Shown here piece by piece: positions 6,386 to 61,540 of a stretch of DNA of 64,000 bases. Position 1 is the stretch's first letter; each line of letters starts with the position of its first letter. Below the pieces are notes generated by a model. That model was not told where the DNA came from. It ran no database searches and saw nothing but the letters and a program-made list of their open reading frames with translations. Source of the stretch: Psychrobacillus sp. FSL H8-0483 (GTDB lineage: Bacteria > Bacillota > Bacilli > Bacillales_A > Planococcaceae); assembly GCF_038637725.1 (NCBI RefSeq), contig NZ_CP152052.1, forward strand, positions 665,501-729,500. The letters run 5' to 3'. Made by a program: the position numbers and the translations under genes.

Positions 6386-6621
6386 ACTTTACATCTTTTT
6401 ACTAAACTTCTTTACTTCACAAACTACTAATATCTTTTAGCAAGTCAGAAAAGGAATTAAAAAACTAACGACTTGTATATCCAAGATAGACATGTTATTA
6501 TATTTAACGTAAGTTTATACATTTCTGCTACATATGCGATTGACATCAATCGGATCGTGTAAGGTATCAGTTTCATAACCAACTCTGTTCCAGATGGTTC
6601 AGGGCGAGAGGAGAGATAGAG

Positions 6622-27881: not shown

Positions 27882-27913
27882 CAATTGCGTTAGGATAGAG
27901 GGAATGGTTGTGA

Positions 27914-28136
27914 CTGTTGTGTTTGCAATGAGATTGGTCTCGATTCCAGGTTAATTGGTTGTGGTTTGGGGATAGTTAGTCTCAATTAGACATTTATCGT
28001 TATTCATTTACATTTAACGCGTCTAAGTTTGCCACTTTGCAGTGTTTATCTAAAGATAAAGCTTAGAAAGAAATACGGTGTCGAATTTCCGAGTAAGTTG
28101 TGGTTTAGGTTGAATTGTTCTCGTTTAGCCATTTAC
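27914..28136 (-). repeat. 21-bp-period repeats downstream of the first NERD gene
   Basis: Units start at 27914, 27935, 27956 and 27977 (TGGTCTCG, TGGTTGTG, TAGTCTCA heads), exactly 21 bases apart. Two more degenerate units lie at about 28096 and 28116, the last overlapping the end of the ancestral NERD reading frame. Read on the NERD coding strand the shared core is CGAGACCA, as in the array at 29241-29944. The sequence between (27998-28095) shows no gene. Confidence 0.6.
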
Positions 28137-28260
28137 TTTCGAAAACAAAATGCTATATTTAGCGTTCCGAGATTGACCGGTCTTCATTAGCATCCTGTTT
28201 TTCAGAATTCTTGTTGCTTCATGTTTGTTATTTAATTTCAAAAATTGCTGGCATTCTTGT
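28125..28260 (-). pseudogene. Displaced C-terminal frame of the first NERD gene
   Basis: In a shifted frame on the minus strand, the DNA reads ECQQF, then NNKHEATRILKN, then TGQSRNAKYS, and stops at 28125. It aligns with the C-terminus of the intact paralogue at 59799 (QECRRF, QDKHDATRILKN, TGKSRKTEYT). One base appears lost near 28258 (AAC-AA-GAA against AAC-CAA-GAA), so the current protein ends early with NASNF. Either a recent frameshift or a sequencing error. Confidence 0.8.
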
Positions 28261-29083
28261 TAGTCATCGTATTTTTATAGATAAAGAAATAATCCTTCAA
28301 CGCTTGTTCGTAAGCCTTTTTGTGATAGATTTTACAGCATGGACAAAACCAATTATGACTTACCTTTCTCATGCCAATTAAACCACACTGGACGCATTCT
28401 ACTCCTTTTATAATGGATTCAGGTGATATAGAAAAGTGATTGCATATTGGGAAGGGAAGAAAATCATAATTAGAGTTTAGAATCCAGTCTTTGAGTTTAT
28501 CTAGATCTTCACTTGAAAGGAGAGGTTTGTCTATCTTGATTTTTCTTAAAAAAGATTTGATTTCTTTTCGTGACAAAACAACTGTATCGCTTGGAGAGGT
28601 TTTTATATAACTAGTGAACGCAAAGACAATGGCACTATAGATTGGCAAATGAATGTACTTGCCACGTAATAACTGGTTTAAGTGATATACGTATTCCTCT
28701 AGTTGAAGAACTGGGCTATCATATGTATTGATTTCGCCAGTTTCGAGTTTACGCACAAGCTGTAGGGGATTTGTTGTAAATGAAATTTCTCCTTTTATAT
28801 TTTTCACCTCAAATATAACCGCATAATACGGGGAAATTAATAATATATCCATTTGAAAAAGAGATTCTGTGTATAACGAAATATTGTGGAATACATAAAA
28901 TTTATACGGCAATTGTACTTGCTCCAACACTTTCATCACAACTTCTTCACCTAAATCACCTGCAACCTTTTGATGGTATTCATCTTGAATCCATTTAAGC
29001 TTTGGATGCTTCCTTGGCAGACGTTTATACAGTGCTTTTAGTGCTTCTACATATAGAGTAGTCGAATATTTTTTTGCTATCAT
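28238..29083 (-). CDS. NERD-domain protein with C-terminal zinc ribbon (frameshifted end)
   Basis: This 281-aa product as read. Residues about 30-150 form a NERD (nuclease-related) domain with AGDLGEEVV, FQMDILLIS and AVIFEVKN, the D...E-x-K pattern of restriction-endonuclease-like folds. A C-terminal ribbon has CVQC and CPCC pairs. The activity of such proteins is unproven. ATG 29083 follows GAGGTGAT; a TTG one codon earlier is possible. It is strongly similar to the 59.8-kb gene along its length. It interrupts the usual murAA-spoIID order and is flanked on both sides by 21-bp repeats. The last 43 codons are out of frame. Confidence 0.85.
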   Translation of the reverse strand: MIAKKYSTTLYVEALKALYKRLPRKHPKLKWIQDEYHQKVAGDLGEEVVMKVLEQVQLPYKFYVFHNISLYTESLFQMDILLISPYYAVIFEVKNIKGEISFTTNPLQLVRKLETGEINTYDSPVLQLEEYVYHLNQLLRGKYIHLPIYSAIVFAFTSYIKTSPSDTVVLSRKEIKSFLRKIKIDKPLLSSEDLDKLKDWILNSNYDFLPFPICNHFSISPESIIKGVECVQCGLIGMRKVSHNWFCPCCKIYHKKAYEQALKDYFFIYKNTMTNKNASNF

Positions 29084-29240
29084 CAAATCACCTCGAAGCT
29101 AGAATATCACAATAGTATTAGTTTAATAAAACGATGAAAATGCGATTTTCATAAGGTAGATTGCGTAAAAATGATGGGAAAATTGAATTCTGATCCTTAT
29201 TTATGCTTCAAAATTCAATTTTGGCATATTAAAATATATT

Positions 29241-29944
29241 TGGTCTCGCTTTGGGATGAAATGGTCTCGGTTAATCGTCATTTGATCTCGGTTAGTAGCC
29301 AATTGGTTGTGGTTACATACATATTGGTCTCGTTAAGCCATATAACGTTATTTACTGTGAAATATTACCTCTAGAAGCTTATGGAATGTATTTAAAATAT
29401 ATTTAGTCTCGCTTTGGGATGAAATGGTCTCGGTTAGTCGTCATTTGATCTGAGTTAGAAGTCAATTGGTTGTGGTTACATACATATTGGTCTCGTTAAG
29501 CCATATAACGTTATTTATTGTGAAATATTACCTCTAGAAGCTCTTGGAATGTATTTAAAATATATTTGGTCTCGCTTTGGGATGAAATGGTCTCGGTTAG
29601 TCGTCATTTGATCTCGGTTAGAAGCCAATTGGTTGTGGTTACATACATATTGATCTCGTTAAGCCATATAACGTTATTTATTGTGAAATATTACCTCTAG
29701 AAGCTCATGGAATGTATTTAAATTATAATTGGTCTCGCTTTGGGATGAAATGATCTCGGTTAGAAGCCAATTGGTTGTGGTTACATACATATTGGTCTCG
29801 TTAAGCCATATACCGTTATTTATTGTAAAATAAGGCCTCTAGAAGCTCATGGATGAACGTATTTAAAATATAATTGGTATTGCTTTGGAGTAAAATGGTC
29901 TCGGTTAACAGTCAATTCCTCTCGGTTCCCTAACCAATTCTCCT
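29241..29944 (-). repeat. Tandem 163-bp super-repeats built of 21-bp units
   Basis: Super-repeats start at 29241, 29404, 29567 and 29730 (exactly 163 bp apart) and a partial fifth starts at 29875. The fourth lacks one 21-bp unit. Each full repeat opens with five 21-bp units (in repeat 1 at 29241, 29262, 29283, 29304, 29325) headed TGGTCTCG or TGGTTGTG, followed by about 58 bp of AT-rich spacer containing CCTCTAGAAGCTCATGGAATG. On the NERD coding strand the core reads AAC-CGAGACCA. There is no convincing ORF. The whole 29084-30024 interval is gene-free. Confidence 0.85.
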
Positions 29945-36776: not shown

Positions 36777-37151
36777 CTTTCATTTTCCAAATCCATTTCG
36801 ATTTTCTTGAGCGTTGTGGGTACGAAACGGAGGCCTGCACGATGCAGGTCACACATTCGTTGCGAAATGTTCTTTTATTTTGCGATGAGCTTTGCGCAGG
36901 AGCACCACGATGTCGCGTACTTAGACTGTGCTCCTTTAAATATCCACAACGATGATCGAAAATAGTGTATCAGGAAGTGAGGCAGTTACTTCCTGATACA
37001 CTTAGCCCTCGGTAACGATGTAGTAGTGATTATTTCGTCCAAAACGAACCAAAAACGTACAAGTGCAAAATCGACTCTATCTATCATACTGTGATGATAG
37101 AAGAAAATTCTGACCAAAGCACTCCGGAAACGATGAAGAAAAAATTGATGC
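36777..37151 (+). other. Gene-free spacer with a repeat fragment and a palindrome
   Basis: There is no convincing gene. It holds a GAGCTTTGCGCAGGAG string (about 36881-36900) related to 1332-1347, and a 14-bp inverted repeat GTGTATCAGGAAGT/ACTTCCTGATACAC (36965-37001) with no T-tract. The rest is unremarkable. Confidence 0.5.
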
Positions 37152-51606: not shown

Positions 51607-52257
51607 ATGAAGATGAAATTTAAGAAAACTAGTGCAGCTTTATTAGTTGCGACAATGACGTTAACAGGAGCAGGTTACGCTTGGGCGGATGAAAATTTAT
51701 TTGATACAGTAGATTTAAACGATGTAATGAATCAAAAGGAAAAAGAGACGGAAGAAACGCCAGTAGCAACAACTGGAGACACTGAATCCGTTGTTACAAC
51801 AGAAGATTCTGTAGGATTGGATATTAAAATTCCTGAAGGATATCCTGCAGGTAATCTTGCAGCACTTTCAAAAGCATATGAAAATGCAGGAAGTGAAACA
51901 GCAAAAGCAGCAATTAAACGAAACGCTGAGCGAGCTATCGCTAAATTTGAAGCTTCTCAACAAGAAGAAACAGAAACTCCAGAAGTAGAAGAACCAGAAA
52001 CGGAAGAACCAGTAGTAGAAAAACCAGTTGAAGAAAAACCTGTAGTGGAAGAACCAGCTAAGGTAGAAGCTCCAAAAGATACAACTAAGAAAGAAGAAAA
52101 ATCTGCTGAAAAAGAAGTACGCAAAGCCCTTCAAGCAGAGCAAAAAGAAGAGCGTAAAGCCCTACAAGAAGAGCATAAGGAAGAAAGAAAAGCTCTTCAA
52201 GAAGAACACAAAGCTGAAAAGCATGAAAATAAAAAGAACAATAAAGAAGATAAATAA
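51607..52257 (+). CDS. Secreted acidic coiled-coil protein
   Basis: This 216-aa product has a signal peptide with a cleavage site near GYAWA-DE (residues 24-29). The mature part has a Thr/Glu-rich linker, a helical block (LAALSKAYENAGSETAKAAI), then Glu/Pro/Val repeats (EEPVVEKPVEEKPVVEEP), and a highly charged tail with three RKALQEEHKEE-type repeats. It resembles cell-wall-associated helical proteins of Bacillales; function unknown. It may be under sigmaI. Confidence 0.72.
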   Translation: MKMKFKKTSAALLVATMTLTGAGYAWADENLFDTVDLNDVMNQKEKETEETPVATTGDTESVVTTEDSVGLDIKIPEGYPAGNLAALSKAYENAGSETAKAAIKRNAERAIAKFEASQQEETETPEVEEPETEEPVVEKPVEEKPVVEEPAKVEAPKDTTKKEEKSAEKEVRKALQAEQKEERKALQEEHKEERKALQEEHKAEKHENKKNNKEDK

Positions 52258-58509: not shown

Positions 58510-58547
58510 AAGAAACATACTTGAATTAAAGCGCTCAGAGAACCGCT

Positions 58548-58623
58548 ATTCACACCCAAGGACCTGCTAACTCAGCAGGTCCTTTATTCACACCCAAGGA
58601 CCTGCTAACTCAGCAGGTCCTTT
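58548..58623 (+). terminator. Tandemly duplicated terminator after argD
   Basis: A 38-bp unit (58548-58585 and 58586-58623) is repeated perfectly; each holds AAGGACCTGCT-AACTC-AGCAGGTCCTT followed by TATT. Two successive hairpins should give tight termination. The rest of 58510-58824 shows no gene. Confidence 0.85.
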
Positions 58624-58824
58624 ATTCATGCTACAAATATATGGCTATACGAGAGCTCCAGTGGCTCATCCAAAAGCCCCTAAAATGTTTCTCGTCGCCT
58701 CACTAAAAACCCTTCCCCCACCCATGCATAAATATGGTACACTTTAGGGAAAATACACTATTATTTTCCTTATATTAAAGCATTCAATAGGAAAGTCCAA
58801 TCACTTAGGAAATGGGGTAAACGC

Positions 58825-59798: not shown

Positions 59799-60752
59799 TT
59801 GATAGCTAAATCATTTGCAAAATCACTCCATGCAGATGCACTTACAGCACTATCTAAACGCCTGCGCAAATCGCATCCCAACTACGCATACATCCGTGAC
59901 GAGCTGATGCAAAAAATCGCTGGTGATCTTGGCGAAGAAGTAGTCATGAAAGAACTAGAAAATTTAAAATTACCCCACGAATTTTTTATTTTTCACAACC
60001 TCAGTCTATACTCTGAAAACAGTTTTCAAATGGACATCCTGTTAATTTCACCCTATTTTGCGGTAATACTAGAAGTAAAAAACATCTCAGGGGAAATAGA
60101 AATTCTCACTAATCCCAGCATACTCGTAAGAACAAAACCTAACGGAGAAAAAAACACTTATAAAAGCCCCATCCCCCAACTCGAAGAATACATCTACCAA
60201 CTATCCCAAATCTTTAAACGTCACAAAATTAACCTGCCCATTTATGGCGCCGTTACATTCGCCTTCGCAAGGTCCTATGTAAAGTCGGCTCCAACAGAGA
60301 CCGTTTTTCTATTAACCAATGAAGTGCGTAAGTTCATAAGGGGAATAAAAACAACAAAGCCACTCCTATCAGAGGATCAACTCGAAAAATTAAAAAACTG
60401 GATCTTAAATAATAATAAAGAATATAACTCTTTCCCGTTAAGTAAGCATTACTCCATAAACCCATTAGATATCATCACAGGAGTAGAATGTCCAACATGT
60501 ACATTTATCGGAATGAAAAAAGTGATCAGAAACTGGACCTGTCCTAAATGTAGAAACTTTAGCAAACTAGCACACGAGCAAACAATAAAAGACTACTTTC
60601 TAATATACAAAGAAACCATTAACAACCAAGAATGCCGCAGATTCTTTCATCTGCAAGACAAACACGATGCCACCCGAATACTAAAAAACGCTAACCTAAT
60701 AGTAACTGGTAAATCCAGAAAAACAGAATACACAATGAACCTACTAAAATGA
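59799..60752 (+). CDS. NERD-domain protein with C-terminal zinc ribbon (intact paralogue)
   Basis: This 317-aa protein has a NERD domain at about residues 30-150 (AGDLGEEVVMKEL, FQMDILLIS, AVILEVKN), carrying the Asp and Glu-x-Lys pattern of PD-(D/E)XK-like folds; a zinc ribbon with CPTC and CPKC (about 230-255); and a conserved C-terminal helix (KHDATRILKNANLI). It is strongly similar to the gene at 28.2-29.1 kb. TTG start after CGAGGTGAT, the same ribosome site as its paralogue. A terminator and a 21-bp-period array follow. Nuclease activity is not established for this family. Confidence 0.87.
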   Translation: MIAKSFAKSLHADALTALSKRLRKSHPNYAYIRDELMQKIAGDLGEEVVMKELENLKLPHEFFIFHNLSLYSENSFQMDILLISPYFAVILEVKNISGEIEILTNPSILVRTKPNGEKNTYKSPIPQLEEYIYQLSQIFKRHKINLPIYGAVTFAFARSYVKSAPTETVFLLTNEVRKFIRGIKTTKPLLSEDQLEKLKNWILNNNKEYNSFPLSKHYSINPLDIITGVECPTCTFIGMKKVIRNWTCPKCRNFSKLAHEQTIKDYFLIYKETINNQECRRFFHLQDKHDATRILKNANLIVTGKSRKTEYTMNLLK

Positions 60753-60789: not shown

Positions 60790-61540
60790 GTCAAAATGTT
60801 CCTAGTAAATGTCTCGATAAGACAAATATTACCATCAATGAGACCAACTATACATCGAACCAAAAGGAAGCTCTTTGCATCCGCAAAGAGCAATTTCCAA
60901 GGCAAAATGTACCCAGTAAAATGGGTGAACGAGACAGACCACACCGTCAACACGACCAACTACACATCGAACGCGACAAACAACACCCCGAACACGACAA
61001 ACCACCATCCCAAAGCGACAAACCCACAAATCGAAGCTTTTCGCCTCTGCGAAAAGCCACATCCAACCAAAAGGAAGCTCTTTGCATTCGCAAAGAGCAA
61101 TTTCCAAGCCAAAATGTTCCCAGTAAATGGCTGAACGAGACAGACCACACCGTCAACACGACCAACTACACATCGAACGCGACAAACAACATCCCGAACA
61201 CGACAAACCACCAGCCCAAAGCGACAAACCCACAAGTCGAAGCTTTTCGCCCCAGCGAAAAGCCACATCCAACCAAAAGGAAGCTCTTTGCATCCGCAAA
61301 GAGCAATTTCCATGCCGAAATGTTCCCAGTAATTGGCTGAACGAGACAGACCACACCGTGAACACGACAAACAACACCTCGAACACGACAAACAACACAT
61401 CGAACACGACCAACTACACATCGAACACGACAAACAACACCCCGAACACGACAAACCACCCGCCCAAAGCGACAAACCACCAACACAACCCGCTGAACCC
61501 AACAAAAAAAGCCCTCCGCCTAAGCGAAAAGCCCAAATAA
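60790..61540 (+). repeat. Tandem ~207-bp super-repeats built of 21-bp units and hairpins
   Basis: Super-repeats begin (at CAAAATGTTCC) near 60903, 61110 and 61316, with a partial copy at 60792. Each has five or more 21-bp units: in copy 1 at 60927, 60948, 60969, 60990, 61011; in copy 2 from 61133; in copy 3 eight unit positions from 61339 (the eighth degenerate). The unit is GAACACGACAAACAACACCTC-like. Between units lie two perfect hairpins, GCTTTTCGC/GCGAAAAGC and GCTCTTTGC/GCAAAGAGC, each with a 4-base loop. Several frames stay open because the period is a multiple of three; no start site or conserved protein supports a gene. Confidence 0.85.

Follow-up and report, generated by a model that had tools for sequence, protein, structure and literature searches.

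The window analyzed here, a 64,000-bp stretch of DNA from Psychrobacillus sp. FSL H8-0483, covers positions 665501-729500 of a 4.14-Mb single-contig genome and contains two genes for proteins with a NERD domain, NERD1 and NERD2, each accompanied by arrays in which a short core motif recurs every 21 bp on one strand (Table 1). Both proteins score far above the curated cut-off of 22.1 bits of the Pfam family PF08378 (NERD1, E 6.1e-17 and 62.6 bits; NERD2, 64.5 bits), and they are 55% identical to each other. NERD1 is 95% identical to P0001, a 324-residue protein of Psychrobacillus sp. FSL H8-0484. In a tblastn search with P0001, residues 1-281 align in frame -2 and residues 276-324 in frame -1. 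As the homology to residues 276-324 lies in this other frame, the NERD1 gene carries a frameshift, and its product is missing the end of the winged helix.

The array upstream of NERD1 contains 15 core-to-core pairs at exactly 21 bp, while the best of 500 shuffles contains one. Its units are grouped into super-repeats, i.e. three copies of 163 bp comprising five units each, of which the second has one degenerate unit, a further copy of 142 bp with four units, shorter by exactly one 21-bp unit, and an incomplete copy in which three units are recognizable. The first-pass annotation had described phased arrays on both sides of NERD1 with the core on the coding strand of the gene, and this is borne out on both flanks by the strand of the cores and by the pair counts. 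The downstream side, with three exact pairs compared to a maximum of one in 500 shuffles, is degenerate and on its own fails both the lag test (37/84) and the motif-chain score (67 with a threshold of 95) used below. The same annotation had counted four upstream super-repeats of 163 bp plus a partial fifth; the tandem copies and the partial fifth are there, but only three of the four full copies have this length. NERD2, which had been overlooked, is a second and cleaner case of a NERD gene with an array, and its 206-bp super-repeats also hold hairpin-like inverted repeats.

Table 1. Features of the window, with positions counted from its first nucleotide. The last four rows list side observations elsewhere in the window.
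Feature	Position	Strand	Description
NERD1	28238..29086	-	282-residue NERD protein; probable ATG start at 29083; frame ends early (open reading frame list)
Frameshifted remainder of NERD1	28113..28259	-	Matches residues 276-324 of P0001 in the other reading frame (tblastn)
Array upstream of NERD1	29228..29924	-	About 22 units; core CGAGACCAA/CACAACCAA
Degenerate array downstream of NERD1	27904..28123	-	Core starts at 28123, 28102, 28083, 27984, 27963, 27942 and 27912
NERD2	59799..60752	+	Intact 317-residue protein
Degenerate first copy of the NERD2 array	60820..60860	+	Core at 60841
Array downstream of NERD2	60930..61490	+	17 units (5, 5 and 7); core CGACAAACAACAC; three 206-bp super-repeats
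L31-Firmicutes ribosomal leader	6583..6613	+	Barely above the gathering score
Bacillaceae-1 RNA (RF01690)	36834..36940	-	44.9 bits
Overlapping tandem repeats	51963..52213		Period 15-33 bp; perhaps within a coding gene
Tandem duplication of a terminator-like hairpin	58547..58628		38 bp, 2.2 copies, 100% match; the gene upstream is presumably aminotransferase-like

The association of arrays with NERD genes extends through the genome and the family. This genome has seven PF08378 matches; six belong to one subfamily and every one of these has a flanking array, and the seventh (L001), which is of a distant NERD type, has none. In a protein search of 151 genomes of the family Planococcaceae, relatives were found in 134, with up to 12 matches per genome. 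We analyzed 96 loci, namely the six genes of this genome, 30 loci returned by the search and 60 taken from the top of the listing downwards with some skipped; because L030 duplicates L003, these amount to 95 distinct loci, some of them near-identical orthologs. In the lag test, which scores the self-match of the flanks within 1 kb of the NERD gene at lags 14-40, the best lag is 21 at 78 of the 95 loci, 20 at five, 40 at four and another value at eight. A de novo motif-chain finder detects an array at 90 of the 95. The threshold of this finder was fixed once the scores were known, and control stretches at least 1.4 kb away were added afterwards; none of 40 shuffled flanks passes, and five of 115 control stretches pass compared to 68 of 116 adjacent stretches. 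Three of these five controls score 302 or more and resemble real arrays. Similarly, a lag-21 score of at least 44 is reached by 61 of 116 adjacent and seven of 119 control stretches. Some open reading frames have a late start or are truncated by a frameshift or the end of a contig (e.g. L074, L099 and L104), which shifts the flank boundaries, and their rows were kept. Class-wide, a profile search gave matches in 86 of 250 genomes, of which 22 belong to the Planococcaceae; many of the matches beyond this family are weak and may represent other NERD types. Among 13 loci of other families, drawn from the best matches, the best lag is 21 in seven, 20 in two, 40 in two and another value in two.

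Defining the core separately for each locus and leaving the spacing free, we find exactly 21 bp for 860 of the 1197 distances between successive cores (105 are 19, 95 are 20 and 20 are 22). The units are same-strand cores of 9-12 bp placed 21 bp apart in chains of at least four, with chains of five or six being the commonest. Where both flanks of a gene carry an array, matching on the same strand is better than on the reverse at all 27 loci, and at 24 of them the two cores are clearly alike. Among loci, by contrast, cores vary, as exemplified by CGAGACCAA, ATCGGATGGTTA, TTGGAAGAAT, CGCAAYATT, TCCGTGGATGGAA, ATCGCTGATAAA and TACGAGAG. Thus, while the proposals that phased arrays co-occur with NERD genes and that relatives retain the 21-bp phase hold across the family, the CGAGACCA (GACMAA-like) core named in the first-pass annotation is not general; paralogs carry their own cores, and one motif common to all arrays is ruled out. 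A coding repeat, 21 bp being seven codons, is also ruled out because other loci step by 19 or 20 bp, which are not multiples of three.

As seen in NERD2, the proteins consist of a NERD domain with a PD-(D/E)XK fold (residues ~1-185), a zinc ribbon (C231, C234, C248 and C251) and a winged helix (residues 258-312), and an AlphaFold model has the nuclease domain, zinc ribbon and winged helix in this order. Residues of the PD-(D/E)XK-type active site are present, with D79, E92 and K94 invariant. Foldseek matches are weak, with one at E 0.001 or better, and the NERD profile has no significant sequence match to any PDB chain. The core changes with the protein. Mean motif similarity is 0.21-0.30 between loci whose proteins are less than 40% identical, 0.49 at 50-60% identity and 0.85 above 85%; over 97 loci, motif and protein similarity are correlated with a Mantel rho of 0.30 (0 of 500 permutations). 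Co-variation with the core peaks around the recognition helix of the predicted winged helix. A phage- or plasmid-borne gene is unsupported: no match was found in 50,697 phage records and none was confirmed in viral_contigs, and 72,556 plasmid records gave one partial match only (27.7%). PHROGs gave a single weak match (E 0.0025) to a family of unknown function.

Three cores of this genome were searched genome-wide, and all three occur also away from NERD genes. Including the arrays at the genes, CGAGACCAA gives 67 pair hits (three for the reversed-pattern control), ATCGGATRRT 46 and CGCAAYATT 39 (none for either control). The stand-alone loci of the CGAGACCAA/CGAGACC, ATCGGAT and CGCAAYATT families, 20, nine and five in number, lie at median distances of 303, 119 and 66 kb from their cognate genes, while random positions lie ~1000 kb away; of 20000 random sets, 0, ~4 and ~5, respectively, are as near, and in a joint rotation test 3 of 20000. 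This test kept loci with at most two mismatches, merged neighboring hits and excluded arrays at NERD genes; it dropped loci with three-mismatch hits only (e.g. the ATCGGAT locus at 2936 kb), and some CGAGACC loci are a single two-mismatch hit. The core families concentrate in different parts of the chromosome. The linkage of arrays to NERD genes drawn in the first-pass annotation is therefore qualified in that arrays away from these genes exist, yet each of the three tested families shares its core with a NERD gene of this genome and is located closer to that gene, in this genome, than expected by chance, and few control stretches have an array. We dropped strand bias as a feature since the minus strand carries nearly all ATCGGAT arrays at 3.2-3.9 Mb but CGAGACC arrays occur on both strands.

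Among 25 stand-alone sites inspected by eye with simple open reading frame calls (24 of the 34 loci of the clustering test and one CGACAAA-type site), 16 lie between convergent genes, seven are antisense in tandem gene pairs, one is sense and one (L192) is unclear; for comparison, four of 33 gene pairs in the window are convergent. The orientation of L144 and L129 would change if the adjacent small open reading frames of 72 and 84 codons were genes; L020 is a fortuitous match within a gene and L197 a second array of the L015 site. At L120 and L131 the array follows the terminator-like hairpin of the upstream gene, again as judged by eye. Between loci, cores are conserved and spacers are not: core and spacer identities are 0.73 and 0.28 for 13 CGAGACC arrays and 0.72 and 0.26 for eight ATCGGAT arrays, with chance at 0.26. 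Within loci, spacer identity is 0.28 for CGAGACC and 0.35 for ATCGGAT, indicating that tandem copying produced some of the ATCGGAT units; no column has drifted in the one CGCAAYATT array analyzed. Several CGAGACC arrays have five units, and five stand-alone ones (L010, L011, L015, L016 and L193) have in common, ahead of the first unit, a ~45-bp leader with TGGCTNA at its end. A comparable leader is found at ~28125-28140 of the window, where it overlaps the last part of the NERD1 homology, and the leader could be either a remnant of a NERD 3' end or a functional part. The CGAGACC arrays L191 and L192 adjoin, in antisense orientation, what we take to be 5S rRNA. In a genome of another genus (G046), there are very large amplified stand-alone arrays (G046:C1:3087306-3110812 and G046:C1:799569-800839).

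Comparisons of shared sites show that NERD genes and their arrays come and go, and that some array sites persist. All 19 genus genomes surveyed contain an ortholog of the 978-kb paralog, with 54-72% identity outside this genome; in three of them the gene is interrupted by an internal stop. The downstream array exceeds the threshold at 19 of 20 loci and the upstream flank at none, and nearly all of the cores contain CGCAA or GCAA. For murAA-spoIID, which was the gene neighborhood inspected, the survey of 19 genus genomes found a NERD gene on the spoIID side of murAA in seven, remnants in one and spoIID without an intervening NERD gene in 11, which fits the first-pass annotation that array and gene interrupt a conserved order. 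Six of these 11 genomes have a lag-21 score of at least 44 at the site. At an intergenic site next to a gene for a 401-residue protein, six of seven genomes compared have a 21-bp array, with differing cores. In Psychrobacillus vulpis (L028, 5900-6330), the 3' end of the NERD gene is repeated, as judged by eye, within the super-repeat of an array.

Our best reading of these data is that every NERD protein recognizes and binds a helically phased DNA array of its own. A cooperatively binding protein had been suggested from the spacing alone, and the NERD protein itself, with a predicted winged helix that co-varies with the core, is the candidate. In this model, one winged helix would read one core. 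Since 21 bp correspond to two helical turns, bound subunits would be aligned on one face of the DNA and could assemble head-to-tail. Stand-alone arrays with the same core would be further targets of the same protein. In the least certain steps, the nuclease domain would nick or cut DNA at bound arrays, and recombination at the breaks would copy arrays, amplify them into super-repeats and spread them locally. Gene and arrays would then form a long-lived intragenomic repeat population that resembles RAYT/REPIN in its working and is built from unrelated parts. We favor nicking or cutting with array spread because the super-repeats, the clustering in this genome and the dispersed cognate copies fit it. 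Overall, we consider it reasonably probable that the arrays are double-stranded DNA binding sites of NERD proteins, with stand-alone arrays as further targets and the nuclease domain driving their spread.

Several observations weigh against this model. Lag 21 is the best lag in 65 of 116 adjacent stretches but also in 23 of 119 control stretches, although codon periodicity may account for part of the signal in the latter. NERD1 lacks the recognition helix in its own frame, yet its arrays persist, and at three of the 27 two-flank loci (L075, L079 and L107) the two flanks have different motifs. For the co-variation, partial correlations are small and a second segment (NERD2 residues 217-230) reaches 0.164; relatedness of loci is only partly controlled, with near-identical orthologs included (e.g. 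L050/L051 and L081/L082). At the site next to the gene for the 401-residue protein, the core agrees with the NERD motif of the same genome in four of six cases, which is not significant, as 72 of 720 permutations do as well. Clustering is weaker in other genomes: within 175 kb of the gene lie five of the 11 arrays of G046 (1.2 expected) and seven of the 25 arrays of G147 (2.0 expected), with P values of 0.009 and 0.008 under uniform placement and of 0.10 and 0.08 under rotation. In G096 there is, among the matches listed, no trend towards nearness (the trend is reversed), so that clustering near the gene is not a universal rule; G129 has only four arrays. Many of the arrays listed for G096 carry a core (CGCAAGGT) different from that of the array at its 978-kb-type gene and may belong to another NERD gene. 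Finally, no pair of filled and empty sites with clean ends was established among the sites compared, and the drift of the spacers disfavors recent copying of most stand-alone arrays, so that active spread is not established.

An organizing or insulating role would fit the convergent sites and the conserved cores nearly as well. Here, the proteins would mark chromosomal neighborhoods or block transcription and supercoiling between convergent genes, similar to MatP/matS or a roadblock, and the nuclease domain would be regulatory, structural or rarely active. The prevalence of convergent sites, the retention of cores while spacers drift, the different chromosomal regions occupied by the core families and the orthologous site that keeps an array in six of seven genomes despite core changes all speak for such an organizer. 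However, clustering is weak or unseen in other genomes, the arrays at murAA-spoIID come and go, and the invariance of D79, E92 and K94 is odd for a purely structural protein; we regard this explanation as a serious contender but on balance doubtful. Growth of tandem repeats without any function is scarcely credible: the super-repeats are clearly products of duplication, the P. vulpis repeats include the NERD 3' end, and the ATCGGAT spacers within arrays and the undrifted CGCAAYATT array point the same way, but between loci the cores and the 21-bp spacing are kept with spacers at chance, and the motifs track the protein.

Two further explanations were weighed. A defense system, in which the NERD nuclease attacks foreign DNA and the chromosomal arrays store it or mark self, would be in keeping with the many NERD matches per genome and with weak matches to NERD-bearing defense models. 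However, no PADLOC family matches at an E below 0.005 and none spans the whole protein, and the NCBIfam match reaches 25-27 bits, far below its cut-off of 460. Some NERD genes away from murAA-spoIID may lie in defense islands, yet we find this explanation improbable. In an RNA-level system similar to type III toxin-antitoxin modules, the transcribed repeats would bind or restrain the nuclease, and it would fit a nuclease-type gene next to a tandem array with the cores of both flanks on the same strand at every two-flank locus. However, six arrays fold no better than their shuffles (z-scores -1.64 to 1.16), Rfam has no match at the window arrays (its two hits in the window lie elsewhere), it is the winged helix that co-varies with the core, the arrays at L120 and L131 come after a terminator-like hairpin, and seven of the eight sites in tandem pairs are antisense. 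An RNA element is therefore not favored, and we consider this explanation very unlikely.

No description of NERD-linked arrays was found in the open-access, non-preprint literature searched, in agreement with the first-pass annotation, which knew of no element of this kind, and the pairing of a NERD protein with a matching array is apparently undescribed. Iterons of plasmid origins are direct repeats about two helical turns apart that are bound by a winged-helix protein. The NERD systems share the direct repeats at this spacing and the (here predicted) winged helix; they differ in that no replication protein or origin is seen, the spacer half is unconserved, and the arrays are chromosomal and dispersed. 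In type III toxin-antitoxin systems (PMC8860590), repeats constitute an RNA antitoxin. A nuclease gene with a repeat array is common to both, but here six arrays show no RNA structure beyond shuffles and copies are dispersed. The domain found is NERD, whose possible ribonuclease activity would be the counterpart of a ToxN-type endoribonuclease. Other NERD proteins, for instance SmdA of Staphylococcus aureus (PF08378; PMC9040797), share the domain, and the L001-type NERD protein of this genome has no array. For matS, PMC3330122 gives a 13-bp site with 23 copies over 800 kb. Both MatP/matS and the NERD systems pair a protein with many dispersed sites; the concentration of these sites in one chromosomal region, typical of matS, is strong for the NERD arrays of this genome, weaker in G046 and G147 and not seen among the matches listed for G096. 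However, the sites described here are multi-core arrays with a strict 21-bp phase, and the proteins form several paralogs, each with a core of its own, and have a nuclease-type domain.

In its working, the nearest system is RAYT (TnpA-REP) with its REP/REPIN elements (PMC8049555, PMC8266576 and PMC3116915), yet two of its defining features are absent. In both cases, a chromosomal enzyme gene is accompanied by short repeats with relatives dispersed in intergenic DNA, as seen in this genome for three core families. However, RAYT is a tyrosine (Y1, HuH) transposase, while the NERD proteins combine a PD-(D/E)XK-type domain with a zinc ribbon and a winged helix, and REPINs are hairpin-forming inverted doublets, while the NERD arrays are phased, direct and same-strand, with no fold signal in six. 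In addition, there are here several paralogs per genome with different cores, and local clustering in this genome. The authors of PMC8049555 state that REPINs were, to their knowledge in 2021, the only stably maintained intragenomic repeat population in prokaryotes. We tentatively speculate, with somewhat less than even confidence, that the NERD systems represent a second kind: a multi-paralog family of nuclease/zinc-ribbon/winged-helix proteins with private, fast-evolving address codes (a core of 9-12 bp every 21 bp) that lie next to the gene and where convergent genes end, often within its chromosomal neighborhood, and that co-evolve with the protein. If so, Bacilli would contain numerous natural pairings of a nuclease-type, DNA-binding protein with its own written target array, changes in paralog specificity would be recorded in the target as a natural data set for the winged-helix recognition code, and a NERD subfamily that bears only a domain name in the searches made would gain a first testable role. 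The reasons for which bacteria keep such repeat populations would then become testable outside RAYT.
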